In this document: piece by piece, positions 19,859 through 33,402 of the stretch | Numbering within the stretch: position 1 is the stretch's first letter | How the letters are laid out: every line of letters starts with the position of its first letter | Assembly: GCA_019237095.1 (NCBI GenBank) | Contig: JAFAHT010000407.1 | Span: forward strand, 1 to 33,402 | Length of the DNA: 33,402 nt | Source: Planctomycetaceae bacterium | GTDB taxonomy: Bacteria > Planctomycetota > Planctomycetia > Isosphaerales > Isosphaeraceae | Reading direction: 5' to 3' | The notes under the pieces: model-generated | Databases searched by the model: none | The model's input: only the letters and a program-made list of their open reading frames with translations | Told to the model about the DNA's origin: nothing | Program-made: the position numbers and the translations under genes

Positions 19859-20079
19859 GGTATGAAAATTCCTCTCGATCCGGGGCGATACGAATTCACG
19901 ACGAGGTCAACCTTACAGTGCGCTCATCCAGGCTTGCAAGTCCTGGATGTAGGCAGATGATCGCGACAGGTGGAAGATCCCACCCCGGAAGTCGCCTCGG
20001 TCCTTCAACTGGTCCGGCGTCTCTCTTAAACTCGATGAAGAGTGATCGTTATCGGCTCTGGGACACGAGGCCACCAACC

Positions 20080-21894
20080 ATGGCGAGGCGAGACACGCCC
20101 GAGATCCTGACAATTCAAGAGACTTACGAGAAAAGCACGCTGGATACGCTCCGCCCGCTCGCCAAGCTCCTCGATCCGAATGCGCCGAGCAAGAAGGCGG
20201 ATCTCGTCCCATTCTTGACCCGGAAGATGGGCAGCAAGGAGCAGGTCCAAGAGCTCTACGAGTCCCTCGGAGACCTGGGGAAGTCAACGGTTCGTGAGGC
20301 CGTCCACAGTCCCATGGGACAGCTCGACCCCTCGCGTTTCGCGGCCAAGTACGGCCAGCTTCCGAGTCGCGGGATGAGAGATGAGCCGGGCAAACTCAGG
20401 GCGTTCTTTCCCGTCGGCTGGTGGCTACCCAGCGACCTCCGGTCGATGCTCCGGAAATTCGTGCCGGAACCCGAGGTCGCTTCGGTGAAGACAGTCGGTG
20501 AGCTTCCGGAAGCCGTAGCCGAGGCAGGTCCGAGCTGGCGCTTTCGTGACGGCAAGCGGGAACGAGAGCAGGTCCCGCTCCATCAGCGGTTAACGTCACC
20601 GGCCGCGCCAAGGGAGTTCGCCACCATGCTCCGGCTGGTGGAGGCCGGCAAGGTCCGCGTGAGCGACAAAACCCGGAAACCCTCCCAGGCCACGGTCGAG
20701 ACGATTCTGCCGCTCCTGAGTGACGGTGACTTCTATCAGGCCGAGGAACGGATCGAATACGCCAAGGACACCGGCCAGGACCTGACGATCCGGGCGTACG
20801 CTTGGCCCTGCATTCTCCAAGCGGCTGGGCTCGTCTCGCTGGTAGGAGGGCGGCTCGAACTCTCGCGGGAAGGTCGCAAGGCGCTCACACGGCAACTCGA
20901 GGTCACGATTCGCGACGCCTGGAAGAAGTGGGACGCCACCAAGCTGTTCGACGAGTTCGATCGCGTCGAGCAGGTCAAGGGCAAGTCGAGTGCCCGGCTC
21001 AGCGCGGTGGCCGATCGTCGCCGCGCTGTGGCTTGCGCTCTCTCGAAATGCCCGCCCGGTGGCTGGATCGAGGTCGACGATTTCTTCCGGTTCCTGAAGG
21101 CCCTGGACCTGGATTTCACGCTGGCTCGCAACGAGTGGAGGCTCTATGTCTCCGACGCGAATTACGGGAGTTTCGGCTACGACGGGCGCCATAACTGGGA
21201 ATTGCTCCAGGGGCGTTTCATCCTGGCTGTGCTCTTCGAGTACGCGGCGACACTGGGCCTGATCGACGTGGCTTATGTTGCTCCCGAAGACGGCCGCGAC
21301 GATTTCTATGATCACTGGGGCGCGGACGACCTCTCTAGCTTCAGCCGATATGACGGTTTGAAGTACATCCGGCTCAGTCCTCTGGGCGCCTGGTGCCTGG
21401 GTGTCGCCGCCGAATATCAGCCGGAGGCTTCGACGTCCGGGGGCTCCTGGCGTGTCTTGCCTAATCTCGAGATTGTCTCGGGCGATGCCCAGCCCGACGC
21501 CGCCGATGCTCTCTTCCTCGACCGGATCGCGGAGCGAACCTCCGAGGCGGTCTGGCGGCTGGAACGCGACAAGATCCTCGTGCGCGTCGAGGAAGGGCTG
21601 AAGCTTGACGAGATCGCCGCGTTCCTGGAAAGGCATGCTCAGGGGCCTTTGCCCGGCACGGTCAGGGCATTGCTTGACGACCTGGAACAGCGATCGGGAC
21701 GGCTTCGCGACCTGGGGACCGTTCGAATGATCGAATGCACCGACCCGGAAACGGCCCGAATGCTCTTGCTCGACCCCAAGCTAAAGACTCTATGCGAGCC
21801 ATCGGGAAAACGCGGAATCGTCTTCCGCGCGAACGTGGAATCGCAGGTCAGGTCCCAATTGCGAAAACTCGGTTATGTTCTTCCGTCAACCTGA
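20080..21894 (+). CDS. Standalone Helicase_C_3 / XPB-Ssl2-like protein
   Basis: This 604-residue protein resembles the helicase-associated (Helicase_C_3, XPB/Ssl2-like N-terminal) domain proteins such as mycobacterial Rv0862c. Seen: alpha-helical N-terminal half (TIQETYEKSTLDTLRPLAKL) with winged-helix-like segments, and the C-terminal RVLPNLEIVSGDAQPDAADA through KLGYVL, the conserved core. No Walker A, DEAD or other helicase motor motif is present, so it is not itself a helicase. In mycobacteria such a gene neighbours an XPB-type helicase; here none is adjacent, and the next helicase genes are DISARM. ATG 20080 begins the conserved part; an ATG at 20035 is in frame. It appears intact. Confidence 0.78.
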   Translation: MARRDTPEILTIQETYEKSTLDTLRPLAKLLDPNAPSKKADLVPFLTRKMGSKEQVQELYESLGDLGKSTVREAVHSPMGQLDPSRFAAKYGQLPSRGMRDEPGKLRAFFPVGWWLPSDLRSMLRKFVPEPEVASVKTVGELPEAVAEAGPSWRFRDGKREREQVPLHQRLTSPAAPREFATMLRLVEAGKVRVSDKTRKPSQATVETILPLLSDGDFYQAEERIEYAKDTGQDLTIRAYAWPCILQAAGLVSLVGGRLELSREGRKALTRQLEVTIRDAWKKWDATKLFDEFDRVEQVKGKSSARLSAVADRRRAVACALSKCPPGGWIEVDDFFRFLKALDLDFTLARNEWRLYVSDANYGSFGYDGRHNWELLQGRFILAVLFEYAATLGLIDVAYVAPEDGRDDFYDHWGADDLSSFSRYDGLKYIRLSPLGAWCLGVAAEYQPEASTSGGSWRVLPNLEIVSGDAQPDAADALFLDRIAERTSEAVWRLERDKILVRVEEGLKLDEIAAFLERHAQGPLPGTVRALLDDLEQRSGRLRDLGTVRMIECTDPETARMLLLDPKLKTLCEPSGKRGIVFRANVESQVRSQLRKLGYVLPST

Positions 21895-22960: not shown

Positions 22961-23008
22961 AGGTTCCGCACGTCTTCCGCAAGTAATTGAGATCAAATGA
23001 CTTACGAA

Positions 23009-23029
23009 GGACAAGGTTTACTGTTGTCC
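23009..23029. promoter_or_regulatory. Palindrome upstream of drmD
   Basis: GGACAA (23009-23014) and TTGTCC (23024-23029) form a 21-bp inverted repeat 42 nt before the drmD start. It could be an operator. No convincing -10/-35 pair could be placed with it. Confidence 0.35.
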
Positions 23030-23070
23030 GACACATAAACTGTCACCGATGTCTCAGAGGCTGCAACACC

Positions 23071-24914
23071 ATGGCGATCGCCGCAACGTCGCCCCCCGAG
23101 TCAGGTCAGCTCGTCAACGTTCGATCCCGGCGCTGGGTAGTTAACGAAGTTCAGGCGAGTCAGCTCTCACCCCGTCCCCTGGAATCGACAGCCGCCAAGC
23201 CCCAGCATCTCGTCTCACTGCTTTCCGTTGAAGACGACGCGCTCGGAGAAGAGCTTCAGGTCGTCTGGGAAATCGAGCCCGGGGCCAAGCTCATCGAGAA
23301 GGTGGCCCTGCCCGAGCCGACCGCCTTCGATTCACCTGACCGGCTCGATGCCTTTCTCGATGCCGTTCGATGGGGAGCCGCTTCGACCGCAGACCTACGG
23401 AACATCCAGGCCCCGTTTCGTTCCGGCATCGACATCGAAGATTACCAGCTTGACCCGGTGGTCCGGGCCATCCAGATGCCACGGGTCAACCTCCTGGTCG
23501 CCGACGACGTGGGCCTGGGCAAGACGATCGAGTCTGGCCTGGTGGCCCTCGAGCTGATCATCCGGCACCGGGCCAGACGAGTTCTGGTCGTCTGCCCGGC
23601 CTCGCTTCAGATCCAGTGGCGCGATCAGATGCGGGACAAGTTCGGGCTCGACTTCCGCATCGTCGATAGCGAGAGGAGACGAAGGTCGGCGACCTTGACG
23701 CCGACCTGGAGTTCTTGATGCGAGCCGTCCGCAAGGTCGAGGCGATCCGTGAAGACCTTGGCAAAGTGGGTCCGGTGATCGCCGAGCAGGTCGAGGAGGC
23801 CATGCTGGGCCGGCGCACCCGGCTCGACACCCGCAAGGCGGAAACCGAGGTCGAACCGATCCGGAAGCTGTTCAAGTTCGAGCGGGATCTCGAAAAGCAG
23901 ATCCGCCTGTTGCTGGACCGGCTCAACGCCACCAAGCGCGACCTGCGGCTCGACCCCGAGAACGTCCAGAAGGTGGTCGAGGTGGCCCTGGAGCTCGCCG
24001 GTCAGCCCAAGCTCGTCGAGGCCAAGGTGTCCGGCCTCTGGCCCGATCCCAAGCGGTCGAAGTGCCCGGTGTTCCGGCTGCCGGTCCTGTCCGACGCCTG
24101 GGCACTGTGCGCTGAGGGGCTGGCGCACCCGTTCACGGGAGAGGCCCGCCCGTTCGTGTTCGATCACGCGCTGGCGCAGGGCCGCGAGGATGTGGTCCTG
24201 GTCCACCTGAATCATCGGCTCGTCCAGATGAGCCTGCGGCTGCTGCGGGCCGAAGTCTGGTCGCAGGAGGGGCAGAAGAAGCGGCTGAACCGGGTGACGG
24301 CCCGTGTCGTCCCCGACTCGTCCCTGCGGCACCTCGCCGTGGTCGCCCATGCCCGGCTGGTCGTCATCGGCGGAGATAGCCAGCGACTCCACGAGGAGAT
24401 CATCACGGCCGTCGGCCCGATCCGGGAAGGGCGATTCTCCCGGTTTGGCTCGCTCAAGGAGATGCAAGACGCTCTTGCGTCGGCGACGGATGAGGAGCCA
24501 GCCGATCTGGTGAAAGAGAAACTCCTTCGACTCTGGCAGTACATCGCCGAGCCGTTGCACCAAACCCTGGAGGCCCGCAAGAACGACCGGACGGACGGCC
24601 TCAAGAAACTGCTCCAGGACCGTGCCAACAAGGAGGTGTCCGACATCACGGCGATCCTCAACGAGTTGCGGCAGGCGATCGAAGGGCAACTGGACGACCC
24701 GTATTACCGGGAAAACTACCTCCCCGGCTTCGCCCCGGCGGAGCAGGAACAGTTCGAGCGAAACGTCGATGCGCTCAGGCGACGATTGGAGGAGATCCCC
24801 GGGGAGATCAAGAAAGAGACCGAGGCGATCCGGGCACGGTTTGCCGATCCGCAGCCACGGATGTTTCCGGTGGCAGTTACGTTCTTGGTGACCGAGAGGT
24901 TGGCGAGGGTCTAG
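23071..24914 (+). pseudogene. drmD: DISARM helicase DrmD, core deleted
   Basis: DrmD is the SNF2-type helicase that marks class 1 DISARM, an anti-phage system. The first piece (23071 to ~23673) carries the family start (ELQVVWEIEPGAKLIEKVAL), NIQAPFRSGIDIEDYQLDPV, the Walker A ADDVGLGKTIES and ARRVLVVCPASLQIQWRDQM, ending FGLDFRIVDSE. The second piece (from ~23670, another frame) starts ETKVGDLDADLEFLMRAVRK and runs to 24914 with a charged helical C-terminus. The DEAH box, motif III and the whole second RecA domain, which should lie between them, are absent. The total is ~610 residues where family members have about 1,000 or more. The frame change at the joint would stop translation near 23718. 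It cannot encode an active helicase as given. Confidence 0.85.
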
Positions 24915-25186
24915 CGGAGGATTCCCAACATGGGTATCCGGGATTTCCGGAGGGCTTTCCGGCTCGCGAAGAACGACGGATTCGTGTTGTTCTATTGATC
25001 GGCTTCGCGCGAGTTCACGACCGATGCCGGCCGAGAGTCATCACCAGACCTCGCGGCGGGGAACCTCTCCCTTAGACGCGGGGACGAACTCCGCGCAGGC
25101 ACGGGAAAAGGAACAGGCCAAGGGAAATTGCCGCACCTGCGGCGGTCTGGGCGCGGTATGATGGCTAAAGGTGAAGGAGATTCTCG
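24915..25186. other. Spacer with a 22-codon ORF
   Basis: A short reading frame, ATG 24930 to TGA 24998 (MGIRDFRRAFRLAKNDGFVL and two more residues), has CGGAGG 9 nt upstream. It begins 15 nt after the drmD stop. It could be a leader peptide, the remnant of a lost gene or chance. The rest of the spacer has no clear signal; TATGAT at 25157-25162 lacks a properly spaced -35. Confidence 0.35.
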
Positions 25187-25591
25187 GTGGCCGTGATCCG
25201 GCTGGTTTCCGCAGCGGATAGCCAGGGAGGGGCGCTGAGGGCGGGCGGCGCTCGGCTACCAGACGAGGCTTTCGTGGTGCGGTGCGGGTTGCCGCCGTTT
25301 CGTGGCCGACCGCTCTTCACGGCGTGCGATGATCATCCGGACGGCGTCTACGGTTTCTCGGTGCAGTCCGCGGCGGCATTAACTGTGGAACAACTGGCGT
25401 CGGCATGCCGGAACAAGACCGTCGGTGCCACGACCGTCGCACGAATCCGCGAAATGGGCTTCGACGTCGTTCCGACAAGCGGCCAGTGGTGGCATGCGAC
25501 CGTCGTCGTCCCGAAGGGCTGGAGCCAAGCGGAAGCTGAGGGGCTGTCCCTGCTCTTCGAGCCGATCAGCAACCCGGCTGCCAGGAGGTGA
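25187..25591 (+). CDS. Unrecognised protein inside DISARM locus
   Basis: This 134-residue protein matches no family I recognise. It is a compact soluble protein with VIRLVSAADSQGGALRAGGA at the start, a core RCGLPPFRGRPLFTACDDHP, a YGFSVQSAAALTVEQLASAC segment and a conserved-looking GQWWHATVVVPKGWSQAEAE end. It has no signal peptide or membrane helix. Start GTG 25187 is supported by AAGGAG about 7 nt upstream. It ends 2 nt before the next gene, so the two are co-translated. Class 1 DISARM normally has drmD followed by drmMI, so this is an addition. A role in DISARM is inferred from position alone. Confidence 0.68.
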   Translation: MAVIRLVSAADSQGGALRAGGARLPDEAFVVRCGLPPFRGRPLFTACDDHPDGVYGFSVQSAAALTVEQLASACRNKTVGATTVARIREMGFDVVPTSGQWWHATVVVPKGWSQAEAEGLSLLFEPISNPAARR

Positions 25592-25593
25592 TC

Positions 25594-26538
25594 ATGAGGC
25601 TGATCTCCGCTGACTTCAACGCGATGACGGAGGCCGGACACGTCCGGTTGACCCTCCCGTGCTCGCGGGAGGATATCCTGCGGATGAGTCTCCGCCCCGG
25701 CGACTGGGCCTGGCTCAGCGACTGTGAGGTCTTGGTGGGCGCGCAACTGGCCATCGACGATCGCTACGGACTGGTCGGCGTCCCCGACTGGGATACCCTC
25801 GTGCACCTGGACGAAGAAGGCGCCGACGACTTCAACCGCGTCAGCGCCGCGCTCAACCCGTTGCTGAACGGGGAACCTCCCTCAATCGAGGAGGAACCAC
25901 GGATTCTCGAGCTCCTGACCCAATTGGAGCACGTCGCGCCGCCGCAGATCAAAGACGCCTCTCCGGGGACTTTCGCCTTCCGGCGTGCTCTCGCCCTGCG
26001 CCAGATGGGTAAGCTGGGCCTGGCGCTCTTGGAGATCGAGGACGCTCGACGCTTCCGGCCTGACGACCCGGAAGTCGTCTTCGTTCACCTCGATCTCCTG
26101 CGTCTCGAGGACTTCCCCGCCGCGATCGCGGAGGCCGAAACAGTCGCCCGATCGCCGAGTGTGCCCGCCCTTGTCTTATCGGCGTGCATCAACATCCTCG
26201 CGACCCAAGCGGAGCAGGCGGCCGCTGACCAGTTCGAGCCGGCTGCTCGGCGAGTCCTCGACTGGTGTCGCCGGCTCGATCAAGCCCCGGACCGCGAACA
26301 AGCGGGGGAGTCACTGCTGGCCTTGTCTCACTTCAACCGCGGCCTCGTGCTCCTCCGAGCGGGCCGGGTCTCCCAAGCTCGAGAAGCATTCGAACACGCG
26401 CACCGGATCTATCCCGTAGGTCCGATGCTCCATGAGGTCGCCGGGCTCCAGACTTACGATCGACACGCCCGCGAGATCGCGAGGAACGTGCGAACGCTCG
26501 CGGAGCGGTGGGTTCCAACGAGGCCGGTTGCCGCATAG
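25594..26538 (+). CDS. TPR-like protein inside DISARM locus
   Basis: This 314-residue protein has an N-terminal ~75-residue beta-type domain (MRLISADFNAMTEAGHVRLT, RPGDWAWLSDCEVLVG, DRYGLVGVPDWDTL) and an alpha-helical repeat region. Seen: helix pairs FRRALALRQMGKLGLALLEI, then EDARRFRPDDPEVVF, and later FNRGLVLLRAGRVSQAREAF with HAHRIYPVGP, typical of tetratricopeptide repeats. TPR proteins are protein-binding scaffolds. ATG 25594 is 6 nt from AGGAGG; an in-frame GTG at 25588 abuts it. The stop lies 8 nt before the drmMI start, so it is in the same operon. It matches no known DISARM component, and its function is unknown. Confidence 0.72.
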   Translation: MRLISADFNAMTEAGHVRLTLPCSREDILRMSLRPGDWAWLSDCEVLVGAQLAIDDRYGLVGVPDWDTLVHLDEEGADDFNRVSAALNPLLNGEPPSIEEEPRILELLTQLEHVAPPQIKDASPGTFAFRRALALRQMGKLGLALLEIEDARRFRPDDPEVVFVHLDLLRLEDFPAAIAEAETVARSPSVPALVLSACINILATQAEQAAADQFEPAARRVLDWCRRLDQAPDREQAGESLLALSHFNRGLVLLRAGRVSQAREAFEHAHRIYPVGPMLHEVAGLQTYDRHAREIARNVRTLAERWVPTRPVAA

Positions 26539-26546
26539 CTCACGCC

Positions 26547-29500
26547 ATGCCTTCTTCCCGCCACCACACCGAATGGCTCTCCCTGATCGAGGTATCCGGC
26601 CCGTTTCTGTCGGTCCCGGTCCTGGAGCGGGTGTTTCCGCAGGGGCTCGACGCCCACGACCCGGATCACGTCCGGGTGTTGCGGCTGGCGTTCGACGAGT
26701 GGGAGGACGATCGAGACAGCGACTCGCCACGACCGGCGATCCATCGGAAGTGGATTCGCTTCGTGCTCAAGGAGACGCTCGGGCTGCCCGGTGAGGTCTT
26801 GGCCGAGGGTCAGTCGATCCCCCAAACGCTCAAGGCGACGATCTCCGAGCATCACGAGACATTGCGGCCCGATGTGGTCGTCCGCAACCCCGAGGGGGTG
26901 CCGAATGCCGGGAAGCCCCGGCTGCTGGCCCAGGTCTATCCGCCGGAGCAGAACCTCGAAAAGCCGATCACCGGCCGGCATTGGAAGGCGTCTCCGGCGA
27001 CCCGGATGATGGAGCTGCTCCACGCCACCGACGTGCGGCTGGGGCTCGTTACCAACGGCGAGCACTGGATGCTGGTCGATGCGCCGAGGGGTGAGACGAC
27101 CGGCTTCGCCTCGTGGTATGCGACCCTCTGGCTGGAGGAGCCGCTCACCCTCAGGGCGTTCCGCAGCCTGCTGGGGGTGAGCCGGTTCTTCTCGGCGGCG
27201 GACGCCGCCACGCTGGAGCAGATGCTCAGGGACAGCGCCACGCACCAGCAGGAAGTCACGGACCGGCTGGGCTATCAGGTGCGTGAAGCCGTCGAAGAGA
27301 TCATCCGGGCGCTCGACCGGATCGACCAGGACGAAAAGCGGCAACTCCTGGCGGGCGTGTCCGAGCCCGAACTCTACCCGGCCGCCCTCACGGTCATGAT
27401 GAGGCTGGTGTTCCTGTTCTCGGCCGAGGAGCGGGACCTGCTGCTGCTCGGTGACTCCCTTTATGATGAGCACTACGCCGTCTCGACCCTCGTGGCCCGG
27501 CTCCAGGAGACGGCCGACCAGCACGGCGAGGAGATCCTGGAGCGGCGGCGCGATGCCTGGGTCCGGCTCCTCTCCACGTTCCGGGCGGTCTACGGCGGCG
27601 TTCAACATGAGCGGATGAAGCTGCTCCCCTACGCCGGGAACCTGTTCAACCCCGACGAGTTCCCCTTCCTCGAAGGGCGCAAGGCGGGAACGACGTGGAA
27701 GAGCACGCCCGCCACGCCACTGCCGATCGACAACCGCACCGTGCTGCACCTCCTGCGGTCGCTCCAGTACCTCGAACTGCATGGTGAGGCACGCCGCCTG
27801 AGCTTCTGGGCGCTCGACATCGAGCAGATCGGTACCGTGTACGAGGGCTTGCTAGACCATACCGCCAAGCGGGCGAACGAGCTGATGGTCAGCCTGACCG
27901 CCGCCAAGGGGGACGAGCCCGAGGCCGCCATCTCGGAACTGGAGCGGCTCAAGGCCAAAGGGGAAACCGAGCTTCTCAAGTTCCTGAAAGAGCAGACCGG
28001 CCGGGGCGAGAACGCATTGACGAAGGCGCTGGCGACCCCGAGAGAGGGTATCGAAGCGAAGAAGCTGCGGGCCGCCTGTGGCAACGATGATGCGCTCTTC
28101 AACCGATTGCGGCCCTTCTCGGGGCTGGTCAGGAACGACACGTTCGACCGACCGGTCGTCATCCGTAAGGGCTCCGTCTACGTCACTGTTGGGACCGACC
28201 GGCGCTCCAGCGGCACGCACTACACGCCTCGCAGCCTGACCGAGCCGATCGTCCAGTACACGCTGGAACCGCTGGTGTACGTTGGCCCTGCTGAGGGGAA
28301 GCCGAAGGAGGAATGGGTTCTTCGCCCGGCCAAAGACCTGCTCGACCTCAAGATCTGCGACATGGCGTGCGGCTCGGGAGCCTTCTTGGTCCACGTGTGC
28401 CGGTATCTGGCCGAACGGCTGTTGGAGGCGTGGGAGGACGCAGAAAAGCGGCACCCTGGCGTGCCGGGCATCACGCCCGAGGGTTCCGCCTCGACCGGAG
28501 CAGCGAACGAGCAACTCATACCGAAGGACACGGATGAGCGGCTGGCCTACGCCCGCCGCATCGTGGCTCAGCGGTGCCTCTACGGGGTGGACAAGAACCC
28601 GCTGGCGGTGGAGATGGCGAAGCTGTCGCTCTGGCTGCTGACGCTGGCCAAGGACAGGCCGTTCACGTTCCTGGACCATGCCATCCGGTGCGGCGACTCG
28701 CTCGTGGGAGTCAGCAGCGAGACCCAGTTGAAGATGTTCTCGCTGGATAGTCAGGGGATCGGGATCACGCTGCCAAACTTCCTCGACATGATCCCCAAGA
28801 TCCTGGATGCGACCCGCCTCCTGCGAATCCGTCTGGAGAAGATCGCCGACGAGACTGTCGGCAACATCGAGGAGAAGCAGCGGCTTTTCGACAATATCCG
28901 GTTCCAGACCAAGCGTCTGAACTATGCCGCTGACCGCCTGCTGGCGGCAAGCTGGGAACCAGCAAAACCGGCCGAGAGGGTCGCTTTGCTCAGGAAGGCG
29001 CTCCAGGAGGTGGACGACCGGATCAGGGACGTAGACCCCGAGACGCTGGAGGCCGAGGTGCTTGCCCACCTCAAGGAAGCGGGATGTGCCCGTACGTTCC
29101 ATTGGACGCTGGAGTTCCCGGAGGTCTTCCTGGACCGGGGTGGGTTCGATGCGTTTGTCTGCAACCCGCCATTCATGGGCGGGCAGAAGATCACGGGCAA
29201 TCTCGGCACGGATTACCGGGACTATCTGGTCGAGCATCTTGCCAAAGGGAAACGAGGCAGTGCCGACCTGTGCTCCTACTTCTTCCTGCTGGCGGCTTCG
29301 TTGCTTCGGGAGGGAGGTCAACTTGGCTTCCTCGCCACGAACACCATCGCCCAGGGAGATACCCGAGAGGTTGGCCTCGACCAGTTGACGGCCATGGGCT
29401 GCGTCCTCCCCCGAGCGGTCCCCAGCCGCAAGTGGCCGGGCACGGCGAACCTCGAAGTCGCCCACGTCTGGTTGCGGAAGGGCCGCTGGGCCTCACCGTT

Positions 29501-31049
29501 CGTGCTCGATGAGAAGCCGGTTTCGGGGATCACGGCATTCCTCACCGAACCGGGCACCGTCAGCGGCCCGCCACACCGCCTGGCCGCCAACGCCGGGAAG
29601 TCGTTCCAGGGCTCGATCGTCCTGGGAATGGGCTTCGTGCTGGAGCCGGAGGAGGCCCAACGTCTCATCGCCAAGAATCGTCATAACAAAGATGTGCTGT
29701 ATCCCTACCTCAACGGCGAAGACCTCAACTCCCGGCCCGATCAGTCGCCGAGTCGATGGGTTATCAACTTCTTCGACTGGCCGCTCGATCGGAAGACGGC
29801 CCCGGAACCCGGAAGACTATGTGGGCCGGTGGCGGCGGATTACCCGGATTGCCTGGCGATTGTTGAGGAGAAGGTGAAGCCGGAGCGGATGAAGAATAAC
29901 CGGAAGGTGTATCGGGAAAAGTGGTGGCACTTTGCCGAGAAACGTCCCGAACTCTACTGTACCATCGCCGGGATGGAGCGGGTGCTGGTCTGCCCGATCG
30001 TCACGAAGTACGTATCCTTCAATTTCGTTTCTTCTGGCATCGTATATATGCACAAGTTGTGCGTATTTGCTTATGACAGCTTCGATGCCCTTGCCGTCTT
30101 GAATTCAAGTTTCCATGAGCCGTGGGTCCGAGAGTTTTGCTCGACCCTTGAGACAAGGTTGAACTATAGCCCTGCCGATTGTTTCGAGAACTTTCCCCTG
30201 CCAGACCACCGGAGGGTTCTCCAAGCAGTGGGGTTGTCATTCAACGATCACCGCCACAAGATCATGCTCTCCCGCCAAGAGGGCTTAACCAAGACCTACA
30301 ACCGATTTCACAACCCCGCCGAATCTGCTACCGACATCCAGAAACTCCGTGACCTCCACGTCGAGATGGACAAGGCCGTCGGCGCCGCCTACGGCTGGTC
30401 CGATCTCGACCTCGGCCACGGCATCCACGAGACCAAGCAGGGAATCCGGTTCACTATCAGCGAGTCGGCCCGCAGGGAAGTCCTCACCCGCCTCCTGAAG
30501 CTCAACCACGAACGCTATGCTGAGGAAGTCAAGCAGGGCCTCCACGACAAGAAGGGCAAGGCCAAACCCGCATCGGGTGGCCGGGGTCGAAAATCCAAAG
30601 CATCCACGAGCACGCCAAGCTTAAAGTTCGGCGGCGACGAAGAGGACCCCGACCCTCCGGACGACTCAGACGAAGAGCCGACGTCCACCCGAACAGGCAC
30701 TATACCCAAACCAAACCGAGCCGACCGCCAAGTTCAACCAACCCCGACTCCCGAAACGCCTGCCCGCCCGACGCCGATCGATCAGATCGAGACCGGATCA
30801 TGGCAGCGTTCCGCCAAGCCGCCCGGAACAGGGGCTGGCTCGATCGAGACGAGCTTCTCAAGGAAGTCTCCCTCGTCCTCGGCTACCAACGGCTCGGACC
30901 CAAGATCGACGAAGCCCTCCGGGGCCACCTCCGAGCCGCCATCCGCCGCCGGATCATCGAGACCGAGGGTCCCAATCTCGTTCGTGCCGGGGCCGTCAAC
31001 ATGGCCGACTACGAACCCGACGAACTCGTCGAGGTCTTCCGCTCCGTGA
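26547..31049 (+). CDS. drmMI: DISARM N6-adenine DNA methylase DrmMI (3'-frameshifted)
   Basis: DrmMI methylates host DNA at adenine so DISARM spares it. This frame gives 1500 residues. Seen: a large N-terminal region (specificity or nuclease-like), SAM-binding motif I DMACGSGAF (~605-613) and catalytic NPPF (873-876), the N6-adenine type, then SGIVYMHKLCVFAYDSFDAL and a low-complexity linker at ~1330-1415 (EEDPDPPDDSDEEPTSTRTG). After about 30793 the frame yields Ser/Pro-rich nonsense to 31049, while another frame continues with MAAFRQAARNRGWLDRDELL, the expected C-terminal winged-helix-like domain. A one-base indel near 30793 best explains this. Methylase motifs are intact, so activity without the tail is possible. 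ATG 26547 is used. Confidence 0.87.
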   Translation: MPSSRHHTEWLSLIEVSGPFLSVPVLERVFPQGLDAHDPDHVRVLRLAFDEWEDDRDSDSPRPAIHRKWIRFVLKETLGLPGEVLAEGQSIPQTLKATISEHHETLRPDVVVRNPEGVPNAGKPRLLAQVYPPEQNLEKPITGRHWKASPATRMMELLHATDVRLGLVTNGEHWMLVDAPRGETTGFASWYATLWLEEPLTLRAFRSLLGVSRFFSAADAATLEQMLRDSATHQQEVTDRLGYQVREAVEEIIRALDRIDQDEKRQLLAGVSEPELYPAALTVMMRLVFLFSAEERDLLLLGDSLYDEHYAVSTLVARLQETADQHGEEILERRRDAWVRLLSTFRAVYGGVQHERMKLLPYAGNLFNPDEFPFLEGRKAGTTWKSTPATPLPIDNRTVLHLLRSLQYLELHGEARRLSFWALDIEQIGTVYEGLLDHTAKRANELMVSLTAAKGDEPEAAISELERLKAKGETELLKFLKEQTGRGENALTKALATPREGIEAKKLRAACGNDDALFNRLRPFSGLVRNDTFDRPVVIRKGSVYVTVGTDRRSSGTHYTPRSLTEPIVQYTLEPLVYVGPAEGKPKEEWVLRPAKDLLDLKICDMACGSGAFLVHVCRYLAERLLEAWEDAEKRHPGVPGITPEGSASTGAANEQLIPKDTDERLAYARRIVAQRCLYGVDKNPLAVEMAKLSLWLLTLAKDRPFTFLDHAIRCGDSLVGVSSETQLKMFSLDSQGIGITLPNFLDMIPKILDATRLLRIRLEKIADETVGNIEEKQRLFDNIRFQTKRLNYAADRLLAASWEPAKPAERVALLRKALQEVDDRIRDVDPETLEAEVLAHLKEAGCARTFHWTLEFPEVFLDRGGFDAFVCNPPFMGGQKITGNLGTDYRDYLVEHLAKGKRGSADLCSYFFLLAASLLREGGQLGFLATNTIAQGDTREVGLDQLTAMGCVLPRAVPSRKWPGTANLEVAHVWLRKGRWASPFVLDEKPVSGITAFLTEPGTVSGPPHRLAANAGKSFQGSIVLGMGFVLEPEEAQRLIAKNRHNKDVLYPYLNGEDLNSRPDQSPSRWVINFFDWPLDRKTAPEPGRLCGPVAADYPDCLAIVEEKVKPERMKNNRKVYREKWWHFAEKRPELYCTIAGMERVLVCPIVTKYVSFNFVSSGIVYMHKLCVFAYDSFDALAVLNSSFHEPWVREFCSTLETRLNYSPADCFENFPLPDHRRVLQAVGLSFNDHRHKIMLSRQEGLTKTYNRFHNPAESATDIQKLRDLHVEMDKAVGAAYGWSDLDLGHGIHETKQGIRFTISESARREVLTRLLKLNHERYAEEVKQGLHDKKGKAKPASGGRGRKSKASTSTPSLKFGGDEEDPDPPDDSDEEPTSTRTGTIPKPNRADRQVQPTPTPETPARPTPIDQIETGSWQRSAKPPGTGAGSIETSFSRKSPSSSATNGSDPRSTKPSGATSEPPSAAGSSRPRVPISFVPGPSTWPTTNPTNSSRSSAP

Positions 31050-31112
31050 TGCGTAAAGGCACGACCTACGACCGTGAAGAAATCATCCCCGCACTGGCTC
31101 GACACCTGGGAG
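30794..31112 (+). pseudogene. Out-of-frame and cut C-terminal piece of drmMI
   Basis: In a different frame from the rest of drmMI, this stretch encodes RGWLDRDELLKEVSLVLGYQ, RGHLRAAIRRRIIETEGPNL, VRAGAVNMADYEPDELVEVF and RSVMRKGTTYDREEIIPALA, two winged-helix-like repeats expected at the methylase C-terminus. It breaks off after ALARHL near 31105-31112. The last ~45 residues and the normal end of the gene are missing, and the next codons in a third frame belong to drmA. An ATG at 30800 could re-initiate translation of this piece. Confidence 0.7.
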
Positions 31113-33402
31113 GAGATCGACGAGCAGAGCGTTCGGGACCGCCACCTTGCCGGGATGCTTGCCCCCAAGCGGCAGGAACTCTCACCCGAGCAGTTCGACG
31201 AGCTTTCCCAGGGGGGTAGCGGATCGGTCGAGGACGGGGCCACCGAATCGTCGTCCCCGACAACGAAGACGATGTTCCCGTCGTCGTTCGGGATGACGTT
31301 TTGCGTCGGCCTCGAAGCGGAGGCCCTCCAGATCACGGCTCGATGGGGGCACTATCACCGGGATCGGAGCGAAACCCTCACGGCCAAGAGCGGCGACAAG
31401 AAACTGGTCTGGAAGCGTGCCCAGCGAGAGGCTGTCTCCGAAGCGATCCCGCTGAAGGTCGGGAGGCTGAACTGGACCCCGGATGGGGAGTTCCCAGAGG
31501 TCCAAGTTCAGGGCCTCGTCCGCAAGCGGGACGACTTCTGGAGCGTCACACTCTTCCTTGTCAACGGCCAGCAGGAGCCCAAGAAACTGCGCGACTCGGC
31601 CTGGGTCTTTCAGCCCGAACTGATCGTGGAGTCGCCCGGTAAGGAAGCCATCTTTCACAGTCGCCCTCAACAGAAAGACCCAGGCAAGAGCGATCCTGTG
31701 ACCTTCGCCGAGGAGCAGGAAATGGCGATGCTCTATCGCCACCACGTCGAGTTCGGCGTCGGACATGGCGTGAGCGTCCACGCCGAATGCCCGGATGGTA
31801 TCTGCGACAAAGCGTCTCGGCTCTCGACCAGGGTGGTCCCCACCCACGAGGTGCCCCAGACAACGCCACCGACCACGGCTGATTGGCCCAGGATGTCCGG
31901 GCTGGTGCTCGACATGAAGGAGTTGGGCGAAACACCCACGTCCCAGATTGAGTCCAAGCTCCGGCCGCTGATCACGGCCTATGACGCCTGGATCAAGGAC
32001 CGGCAGGCGGAGCTCAAGAAACCCGATATGGCCCTCTATCAGAAGCCGGGCGAGGCGGCTTTGACTCGGTGCAAGGTCACGCTCCAGCGGATCGAGGAGG
32101 GGCTCCAACTGATCCTCGACGACGGCAAAGCCGCGGACGCCTTCCGATTCGCCAATCTGGCCATGTGGAAGCAGCGCATCCAGACGATCATCTCGCTCAG
32201 ACGACGCCGTGATGAGCCGGTGGACGAGCGCGCCATCGACATCCCTGAGAACCGCTCCTGGTATCCCTTCCAGTTGGCCTTCATCCTGCTCAATTTGCCG
32301 AGCATCACCCGGCTCGACCACAAGGACCGAACGTCCGAATCGGAGGCGATGGCCGATCTGCTGTGGTTCCCGACAGGGGGAGGCAAGACAGAGGCGTACC
32401 TTGGACTGTCGGCCTACACGATGGGGCTACGGAGGCTCCAGGGGACGGTGGCCGGTCGCTCTGGCGAGTGCGGCATCGCCGTGCTGATGCGCTATACGCT
32501 GCGGCTACTGACCATCCAGCAGTTCCAGCGGGCCACTGCCCTGATCTGTGCCTGCGAAGTGATCCGGCGGTCCGACGAGAAGACATGGGGCAAGGAACCG
32601 TTCCGCATCGGCCTCTGGGTGGGACAGAAGACGACCCCGAATACGACCGATGCCGCCGCCGAGGCAATCCAGGAGGAGCGCGGTGGCAAATACAAGGGAC
32701 GAGGCAGCGGCACCCCGGCCCAACTGACGAATTGCCCTTGGTGCGGGACCAAGATCAACGCCGGGCAGCACATCAAGGTTGAGAGCTATACAAAGGGGCG
32801 ATGCCGCACTGTGACATACTGTGGCGACGAACTGGGCCGTTGCCCCTTCAGCGCCAAGAACTCTCCGCTCGAGGGCATCCCGGTCCTGGTCGTGGACGAG
32901 GAAATCTACCGGCGACTGCCAACCTTGCTGATCGCCACCGTGGACAAGTTCGCCCAGATGCCCTGGAACGGCAAGGTGGGGATGCTGTTCGGCCAGGTGG
33001 ACGCCTTCTGCCCCCGCCACGGCTTCTGCTCCCCCGAGCTGGCCTGCGGTATGAACCACCCGAAAAAGGATAAATGGCCCGCGGTCCGTGTGCAGCCGCA
33101 CAAGCCGCTGCGTCCGCCGGACCTCATCATCCAGGACGAGCTGCACCTGATCTCCGGGCCGCTGGGGACGCTGGTCGGCCTGTACGAGACGGCGGTGGAT
33201 CGGCTCTGCACCTGGGAGGCCGGCGGCAAGAAGGTCCGGCCCAAGGTGATCGCCTCGACGGCGACCATCCGCAAGGCCGGCGACCAGGTCCACGCCACCT
33301 TCCTGCGGCGAGTAAGCGTCTTCCCGCCTCAGAGCCTCGACGTGCGAGATAACTTCTTCTCCCGCCAGCGGCCGCCGAGCGAGGCCGAACCCGGTCGGCT
33401 GT
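31074..33402 (+). CDS. drmA: DISARM helicase DrmA, N-terminus lost, runs off window
   Basis: DrmA is the core DISARM helicase. The frame is open without a stop from 31050 to the window end. Seen: EEIDEQSVRDRHLAGMLAPK at the first conserved residues, TMFPSSFGMTFCVGLEAEAL, GFWVTLFLVNGQ-like region, the Walker A WFPTGGGKTEAYLGL (~32364-32400), cysteine pairs of a zinc-ribbon-like insert (NCPWCG at 32730-32747; YCGDELGRCPF), the DELH box (33135-33146) and STATIRKA (~33255). The family's first ~25 residues and a start codon are absent; the nearest in-frame starts are GTG 31074 (no good ribosome binding site) and ATG 31155. The second RecA domain, drmB and drmC should lie beyond 33402. Confidence 0.83.
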   Translation, partial: MKKSSPHWLDTWEEIDEQSVRDRHLAGMLAPKRQELSPEQFDELSQGGSGSVEDGATESSSPTTKTMFPSSFGMTFCVGLEAEALQITARWGHYHRDRSETLTAKSGDKKLVWKRAQREAVSEAIPLKVGRLNWTPDGEFPEVQVQGLVRKRDDFWSVTLFLVNGQQEPKKLRDSAWVFQPELIVESPGKEAIFHSRPQQKDPGKSDPVTFAEEQEMAMLYRHHVEFGVGHGVSVHAECPDGICDKASRLSTRVVPTHEVPQTTPPTTADWPRMSGLVLDMKELGETPTSQIESKLRPLITAYDAWIKDRQAELKKPDMALYQKPGEAALTRCKVTLQRIEEGLQLILDDGKAADAFRFANLAMWKQRIQTIISLRRRRDEPVDERAIDIPENRSWYPFQLAFILLNLPSITRLDHKDRTSESEAMADLLWFPTGGGKTEAYLGLSAYTMGLRRLQGTVAGRSGECGIAVLMRYTLRLLTIQQFQRATALICACEVIRRSDEKTWGKEPFRIGLWVGQKTTPNTTDAAAEAIQEERGGKYKGRGSGTPAQLTNCPWCGTKINAGQHIKVESYTKGRCRTVTYCGDELGRCPFSAKNSPLEGIPVLVVDEEIYRRLPTLLIATVDKFAQMPWNGKVGMLFGQVDAFCPRHGFCSPELACGMNHPKKDKWPAVRVQPHKPLRPPDLIIQDELHLISGPLGTLVGLYETAVDRLCTWEAGGKKVRPKVIASTATIRKAGDQVHATFLRRVSVFPPQSLDVRDNFFSRQRPPSEAEPGRL

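Follow-up and report, generated by a model that had tools for sequence, protein, structure and literature searches.

Background

In RHS systems, polymorphic-toxin tips occupy the C-terminal position. Toxin and immunity genes of this kind also occur apart from their delivery machinery: orphan rhs toxin/immunity pairs of Salmonella, which lack the delivery part, have been shown experimentally to be type II toxin-antitoxin (TA) modules (PMC7043789). Cargo nested in BREX has been proposed as a backup effector (PMC12839542), and our literature search, which was thin on subscription papers, found no account of nested backup cargo for DISARM.

Here we describe two genes lying between drmD and drmMI in a 33,402-nt stretch (the window; contig JAFAHT010000407.1) from a draft genome of a Planctomycetaceae bacterium. 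On sequence evidence, the pair is likely to be a free-standing cassette of toxin and immunity genes, of the type known from polymorphic (RHS) toxins, acting as an internal TA module; it probably landed in DISARM as cargo instead of being part of the system. As best read, the family to which it belongs has not been described before.

Organization of the locus

The features of the region are as follows.

22987..23718, + strand: N-terminal piece of drmD (SNF2 helicase; PADLOC DrmD 2.2e-101; true homology ~23053-23685)
23688..24914, + strand: C-terminal piece of drmD, in another frame (PADLOC DrmD 2.9e-113)
24915..25186, no strand: intergenic stretch of 272 nt, 5' of the cassette
25173..25179, + strand: ribosome binding site GAAGGAG of the toxin gene, read from the sequence
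25187..25591, + strand: putative toxin gene (GTG start, 134 aa; ORF from sequence)
25583..25588, + strand: AGGAGG Shine-Dalgarno of the immunity gene, within the last toxin codons (from sequence)
25594..26538, + strand: putative immunity gene (ATG start, 314 aa; N-terminal "DFN" immunity domain followed by a TPR region)
25594..25818, + strand: immunity domain, residues 1-75, predicted beta-rich (BLASTP, A9 alignment, model strands)
25813..26511, + strand: TPR-type helical extension, common to the G401 and G415 partners and missing from other partners
26547..30587, + strand: drmMI, homologous part (PADLOC DrmMI E=0, 1816 bits; frame open to 31049)
31074..33401, + strand: drmA, running off the contig end (NCBIfam DrmAS 3.8e-273)

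The original prediction of two intact genes of 134 and 314 aa between drmD and drmMI was confirmed at the level of the ORFs: 2 nt separate the putative toxin and immunity genes, and 8 nt separate the latter from the drmMI ATG (26547). Its proposal of one transcript was narrowed. The drmD stop (24914) lies 272 nt from the first cassette gene, so that co-transcription is suggested only for toxin, immunity gene and drmMI; a consensus scan of this 272-nt stretch found no sigma-70-like promoter.

PADLOC and NCBIfam agree on the identity of drmD and drmMI. The neighbours had been described as broken, which is true of drmD alone: its pieces align to residues 12-223 and 674-1077 of the DrmD of a reference locus (L041) in two different frames, and ~450 aa of the helicase core are absent where the frame changes, between 23682 and 23688. 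Against the same locus, drmMI aligns continuously (residues 3-1383 of 1409), as does drmA up to the contig end. The loss in drmD may be a real deletion or a misassembly; with drmD broken, DISARM itself is possibly non-working in the window. An ORF at 30800-31219 (FRQAARNRGWLDRDELLKEVSLVLGYQR...) overlaps the open drmMI tail in another frame and could represent either a small gene in its own right or an extension of the C-terminus in a shifted frame. A 658-aa protein containing an XPB-like Helicase_C_3 domain is encoded at 19918-21894, upstream of the DISARM genes.

Both cassette genes are real coding sequence, as indicated by their protein homologues and by an excess of third-position differences. 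Between relatives, differences in the two genes amount to 0.60-0.68 at third and 0.20-0.41 at second codon positions; for the toxin against its G401 homologue the values at positions 1, 2 and 3 are 0.38, 0.33 and 0.66. Cassette GC3 (0.76-0.78) is slightly below that of drmMI and drmA (0.83).

The 134-aa protein is related to RHS toxin tips

Among 294 genomes of the phylum sampled first, the 134-aa protein had its best relative in the C-terminal portion of an RHS protein (86 residues aligned at 45% identity), and a search with a two-row profile brought up another RHS protein; these relatives are at L002/L073 and L064/L074 (alignments A5, A10). The homologues form the C-termini of RHS-core proteins in two Planctomycetota metagenome-assembled genomes (MAGs; TIGR03696 1.5e-14 and 4e-17, above the cut-off); an RHS fragment that ends in a homologue comes from an Armatimonadota MAG (2.2e-5, below the cut-off). 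A scan of species genomes gave Planctomycetota and Planctomycetia MAGs as RHS carriers, besides the Armatimonadota MAG with two copies, and a contig listed in IMG/VR (L076) holds two further copies. With homologues at RHS C-termini, and the RHS core confirmed in two, the domain sits at the polymorphic-toxin tip position. Since fusion to the RHS delivery shell holds for homologues but not for the window copy, a free-standing 134-aa ORF, the latter is an orphan relative of RHS toxins and not an RHS toxin itself. Known homologues are few, about a dozen. Three early candidates (L004-L006) proved to be chance matches, and plasmids and viral contigs, searched with single sequences, returned no matches.

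Sequence searches of Pfam, NCBIfam, PADLOC and PDB gave no match for either the toxin or the antidote domain, and the 134-aa protein matched no known enzyme family. Conserved toxin residues include R32, G34, G56, S58 and H103. Seven positions (V, V, R, G, G, S and H) are invariant across the nine toxins aligned, which suggests an active site centred on R, S and H. The AlphaFold2 model (pLDDT 74, pTM 0.71; 85-94 in a block across residues 61-110) had no significant Foldseek match, and a search against viral proteins was uninformative. Tpt1/KptA chains top the Foldseek list weakly (probability <=0.35, E >=0.45), and comparison of profiles with hhalign failed to support kinship with them. From the conserved R, S and H and this weak model-based lead to an ADP-ribosyltransferase-like fold, ADP-ribosyltransferase-like chemistry may tentatively be entertained for the putative toxin; a metal-free RNase seems a somewhat less likely assignment. 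At L076 (1801-4450), two toxin-immunity pairs with a repeated upstream segment have a KptA/Tpt1-like gene between them.

The 314-aa protein carries an immunity-type domain and TPR repeats

In the RHS loci, the toxin and the next gene have overlapping or near-overlapping junctions, and the ORF that follows the toxin is 75-93 aa long; the domain it encodes has two motifs, DFN close to the beginning and one resembling WDTL towards the end. The gene after the L064 RHS toxin matches the 314-aa protein over residues 4-74 (BLASTP 4e-8; 0.004 for the weaker other pair), and the immunity domain, with model strands at residues 2-11, 38-42, 46-55 and 59-71, aligns across six to eight sequences (A9). An immunity-type gene directly downstream of the toxin is thus co-conserved with it. 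The earlier description of the 314-residue protein as TPR-like held: TPR_2 matches residues 243-274 (1.4e-8; 34.7 bits against a cut-off of 27), and the C-terminal region gave TPR matches in Foldseek with probability 1.0 but a best E of only 5e-3. Its first database matches (L008-L010) reflected generic TPR similarity. The best reading is that TPR repeats were joined to the antidote in one sub-lineage.

Free-standing pairs and toxin decay

The toxin is carried by 5 of 45 genomes of the window's order, namely the window's and four more in which the two genes come in the same order, all in the window's own family (G401, G415, G430 and G404). The partners in G401 and G415 are of the TPR type (309 and 304 aa from a conserved ATG), and those in G430 and G404 are short (88 and 92 aa). 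These pairs adjoin PSP1, alpha/beta hydrolase, uvrA and cytochrome c/Uma2 genes, and no drm genes were found among the neighbours tested. Two adjacent, coupled genes thus recur at scattered loci, as in type II TA modules, with the 314-aa partner larger than usual.

A profile of the immunity domain found the same five genomes plus two extra copies, and did not detect the domain in the 40 toxin-free genomes of the order. As this profile was built from genes adjoining toxins, co-occurrence in the seed genomes follows in part from its design, and the independent evidence lies only in the absence from those 40 genomes and in the extra copies. One of these adjoins a disrupted toxin (G404:C191). The other, in the window's own genome (G000:C127; L121/L123; L121 1501-1728), is a short, toxin-less immunity copy with a HicA-like gene on its upstream side and obgE on its downstream side.

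Neither gene is disrupted in G401 or G430. The toxin frame is broken while the antidote stays open in G415, at both G404 loci and in copy 1 of L075, a pattern expected if only the toxin is harmful; some of the frameshifts may be draft-assembly errors. In G081 a stop falls inside the conserved toxin motif, and since the TPR part there has no detectable relation to that of the window, this locus is counted as a toxin relic only.

The drmD-drmMI junction as a cargo slot

Profiles of both proteins were run against 33 DISARM stretches, and the window alone matched. In G430, two DISARM loci are located on the pair-bearing chromosome, 0.65 and 2.3 Mb away from the pair. The cassette is therefore not a drm gene, and does not recur with drmD, drmMI and drmA as a component of class 1 DISARM would.

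In most of the 29 other measurable DISARM loci drmD and drmMI are 15-53 nt apart, against ~1.64 kb in the window. Seven of these 29 junctions (L054, L057, L058, L105, L107, L109, L111) hold 0.4-3 kb of extra DNA with other genes: AriAB/PARIS in G238 (L058; 1.3e-139), a PIN-like protein together with XRE-ImmA in G081 (L054), a 23S rRNA intervening-sequence protein in G069, a protein with a cold-shock domain in G408, and unassigned proteins in G422 and, twice, in G430. Mutual comparison of the slot proteins revealed no convincing similarity; a match between those of G408 and G422 (E 0.003, 32 aa) was attributed to chance. The drmMI-drmA junction likewise bears 1-4 kb of cargo at L043, L045, L052, L054 and L059, including DarG in G016 (at L045, DarG with E 2.1e-132 plus an ImmA-like gene) and an NsnA-like gene in G002 (L043). 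Unrelated extra genes at so many junctions mark them as cargo slots. The data accommodate either reading, that such cargo was recruited as a backup effector or that it is merely tolerated.

Alternative explanations

The original prediction had offered a DISARM accessory, a regulator or an inserted second defence module. A true accessory or regulator acting alongside the Drm proteins is suggested by location only and is extremely unlikely, given that one of 33 DISARM stretches matched (the window itself), that homologues occur away from drm genes, the very finding named in advance as counting against it, and that most relatives keep drmD and drmMI close together. The idea of an inserted module fared better, although what was inserted is a putative toxin-immunity pair and not an established anti-phage system. 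We judge it rather unlikely that the pair is a guardian or backup effector, in which the TPR region of the antidote would sense phage attack or DISARM inhibition and free the toxin to halt the infected cell, in the manner of PrrC. Sensing is an established role of some TPR proteins, for example Rap and NprR, both of which are among the many TPR matches of the 314-aa protein. The cassette moreover lies inside the operon, 8 nt from drmMI; other DISARM junctions carry suicide-type or TA genes (AriAB/PARIS in G238, XRE-ImmA plus PIN-like in G081, DarG in G016); and there are precedents in PrrC, from a type IC restriction locus, and in BREX-embedded PARIS (PMC12707154, PMC12839542). However, the TPR-type pairs of G401 and G415 are outside DISARM, the DISARM of the window is possibly idle with its broken drmD, and no sensing partner is known. 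It is unlikely, too, that the drmD-drmMI junction is a dedicated slot for swappable suicide modules triggered by a block of DISARM, for which a weapon-derived toxin and a TPR antidote would have been recruited.

That the pair is a silent cassette, a stored tip for RHS swapping with no expression of its own, would suit the displaced cassettes that adjoin RHS genes in L075 and the two copies close together in L076. We regard it as very unlikely, as the window copy comes with a start codon and ribosome binding site of its own, the window proteins scanned gave no RHS-like match, and the stretches read around the free-standing copies of G401 and G430 contain no RHS gene. The draft state of the genome (603 contigs) and the ~450 aa missing from drmD in the same stretch could point to a decaying remnant or a misassembly product, but both frames are intact and of the expected length, the family is under coding constraint and a homologous pair is found in a genome of 5 contigs (G401), which makes this highly improbable.

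We thus favour the free-standing toxin-immunity cassette. The 134-aa protein would be a bare toxin domain devoid of the RHS delivery part, and the 314-aa protein its cognate antidote, with the antidote domain in residues 1-75 and a TPR array added. The toxin would be made inside the cell together with the antidote, which, by analogy with type II TA modules, would bind and block it, so that loss of the cassette would be penalised. Its presence in DISARM may be explained, we tentatively propose, by a drmD-drmMI junction that tolerates cargo sparing the flanking frames and gene order.

Comparison with known systems

Our data point to an undescribed toxin/antidote family common to RHS weapons and free-standing modules. 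They also show that DISARM operons of the phylum carry unrelated genes, PARIS and DarG-type genes included, at fixed junctions, which makes nested backup modules in DISARM, as discussed for BREX, a directly testable idea.

Tpt1/KptA, an RNA 2'-phosphotransferase of ADP-ribosyltransferase fold, recurs as the top structural neighbour of the toxin model, but the Foldseek matches are weak (<=0.35) and profile comparison lends no support. With PARIS (AriAB) and PrrC-type guardians the window pair shares the nesting of an effector set in a restriction-type operon, in the case of PARIS in the same drmD-drmMI slot (G238, L058); it differs in that no ATPase is seen in the pair and PADLOC matched the toxin neither to AriAB nor to another defence protein. 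RHS polymorphic toxins with downstream immunity genes resemble it in the homologous toxin domain and in the antidote-type gene directly downstream, whereas the window lacks the RHS part, its antidote has TPR repeats, and both families are absent from Pfam, NCBIfam and PADLOC. The orphan rhs-CT/rhsI pairs of Salmonella likewise combine toxin and antidote in the absence of a delivery part, with intracellular expression shown there and presumed here. The likeness is one of arrangement, with no claim of sequence relation, and the window pair is set apart by its place inside a DISARM operon.
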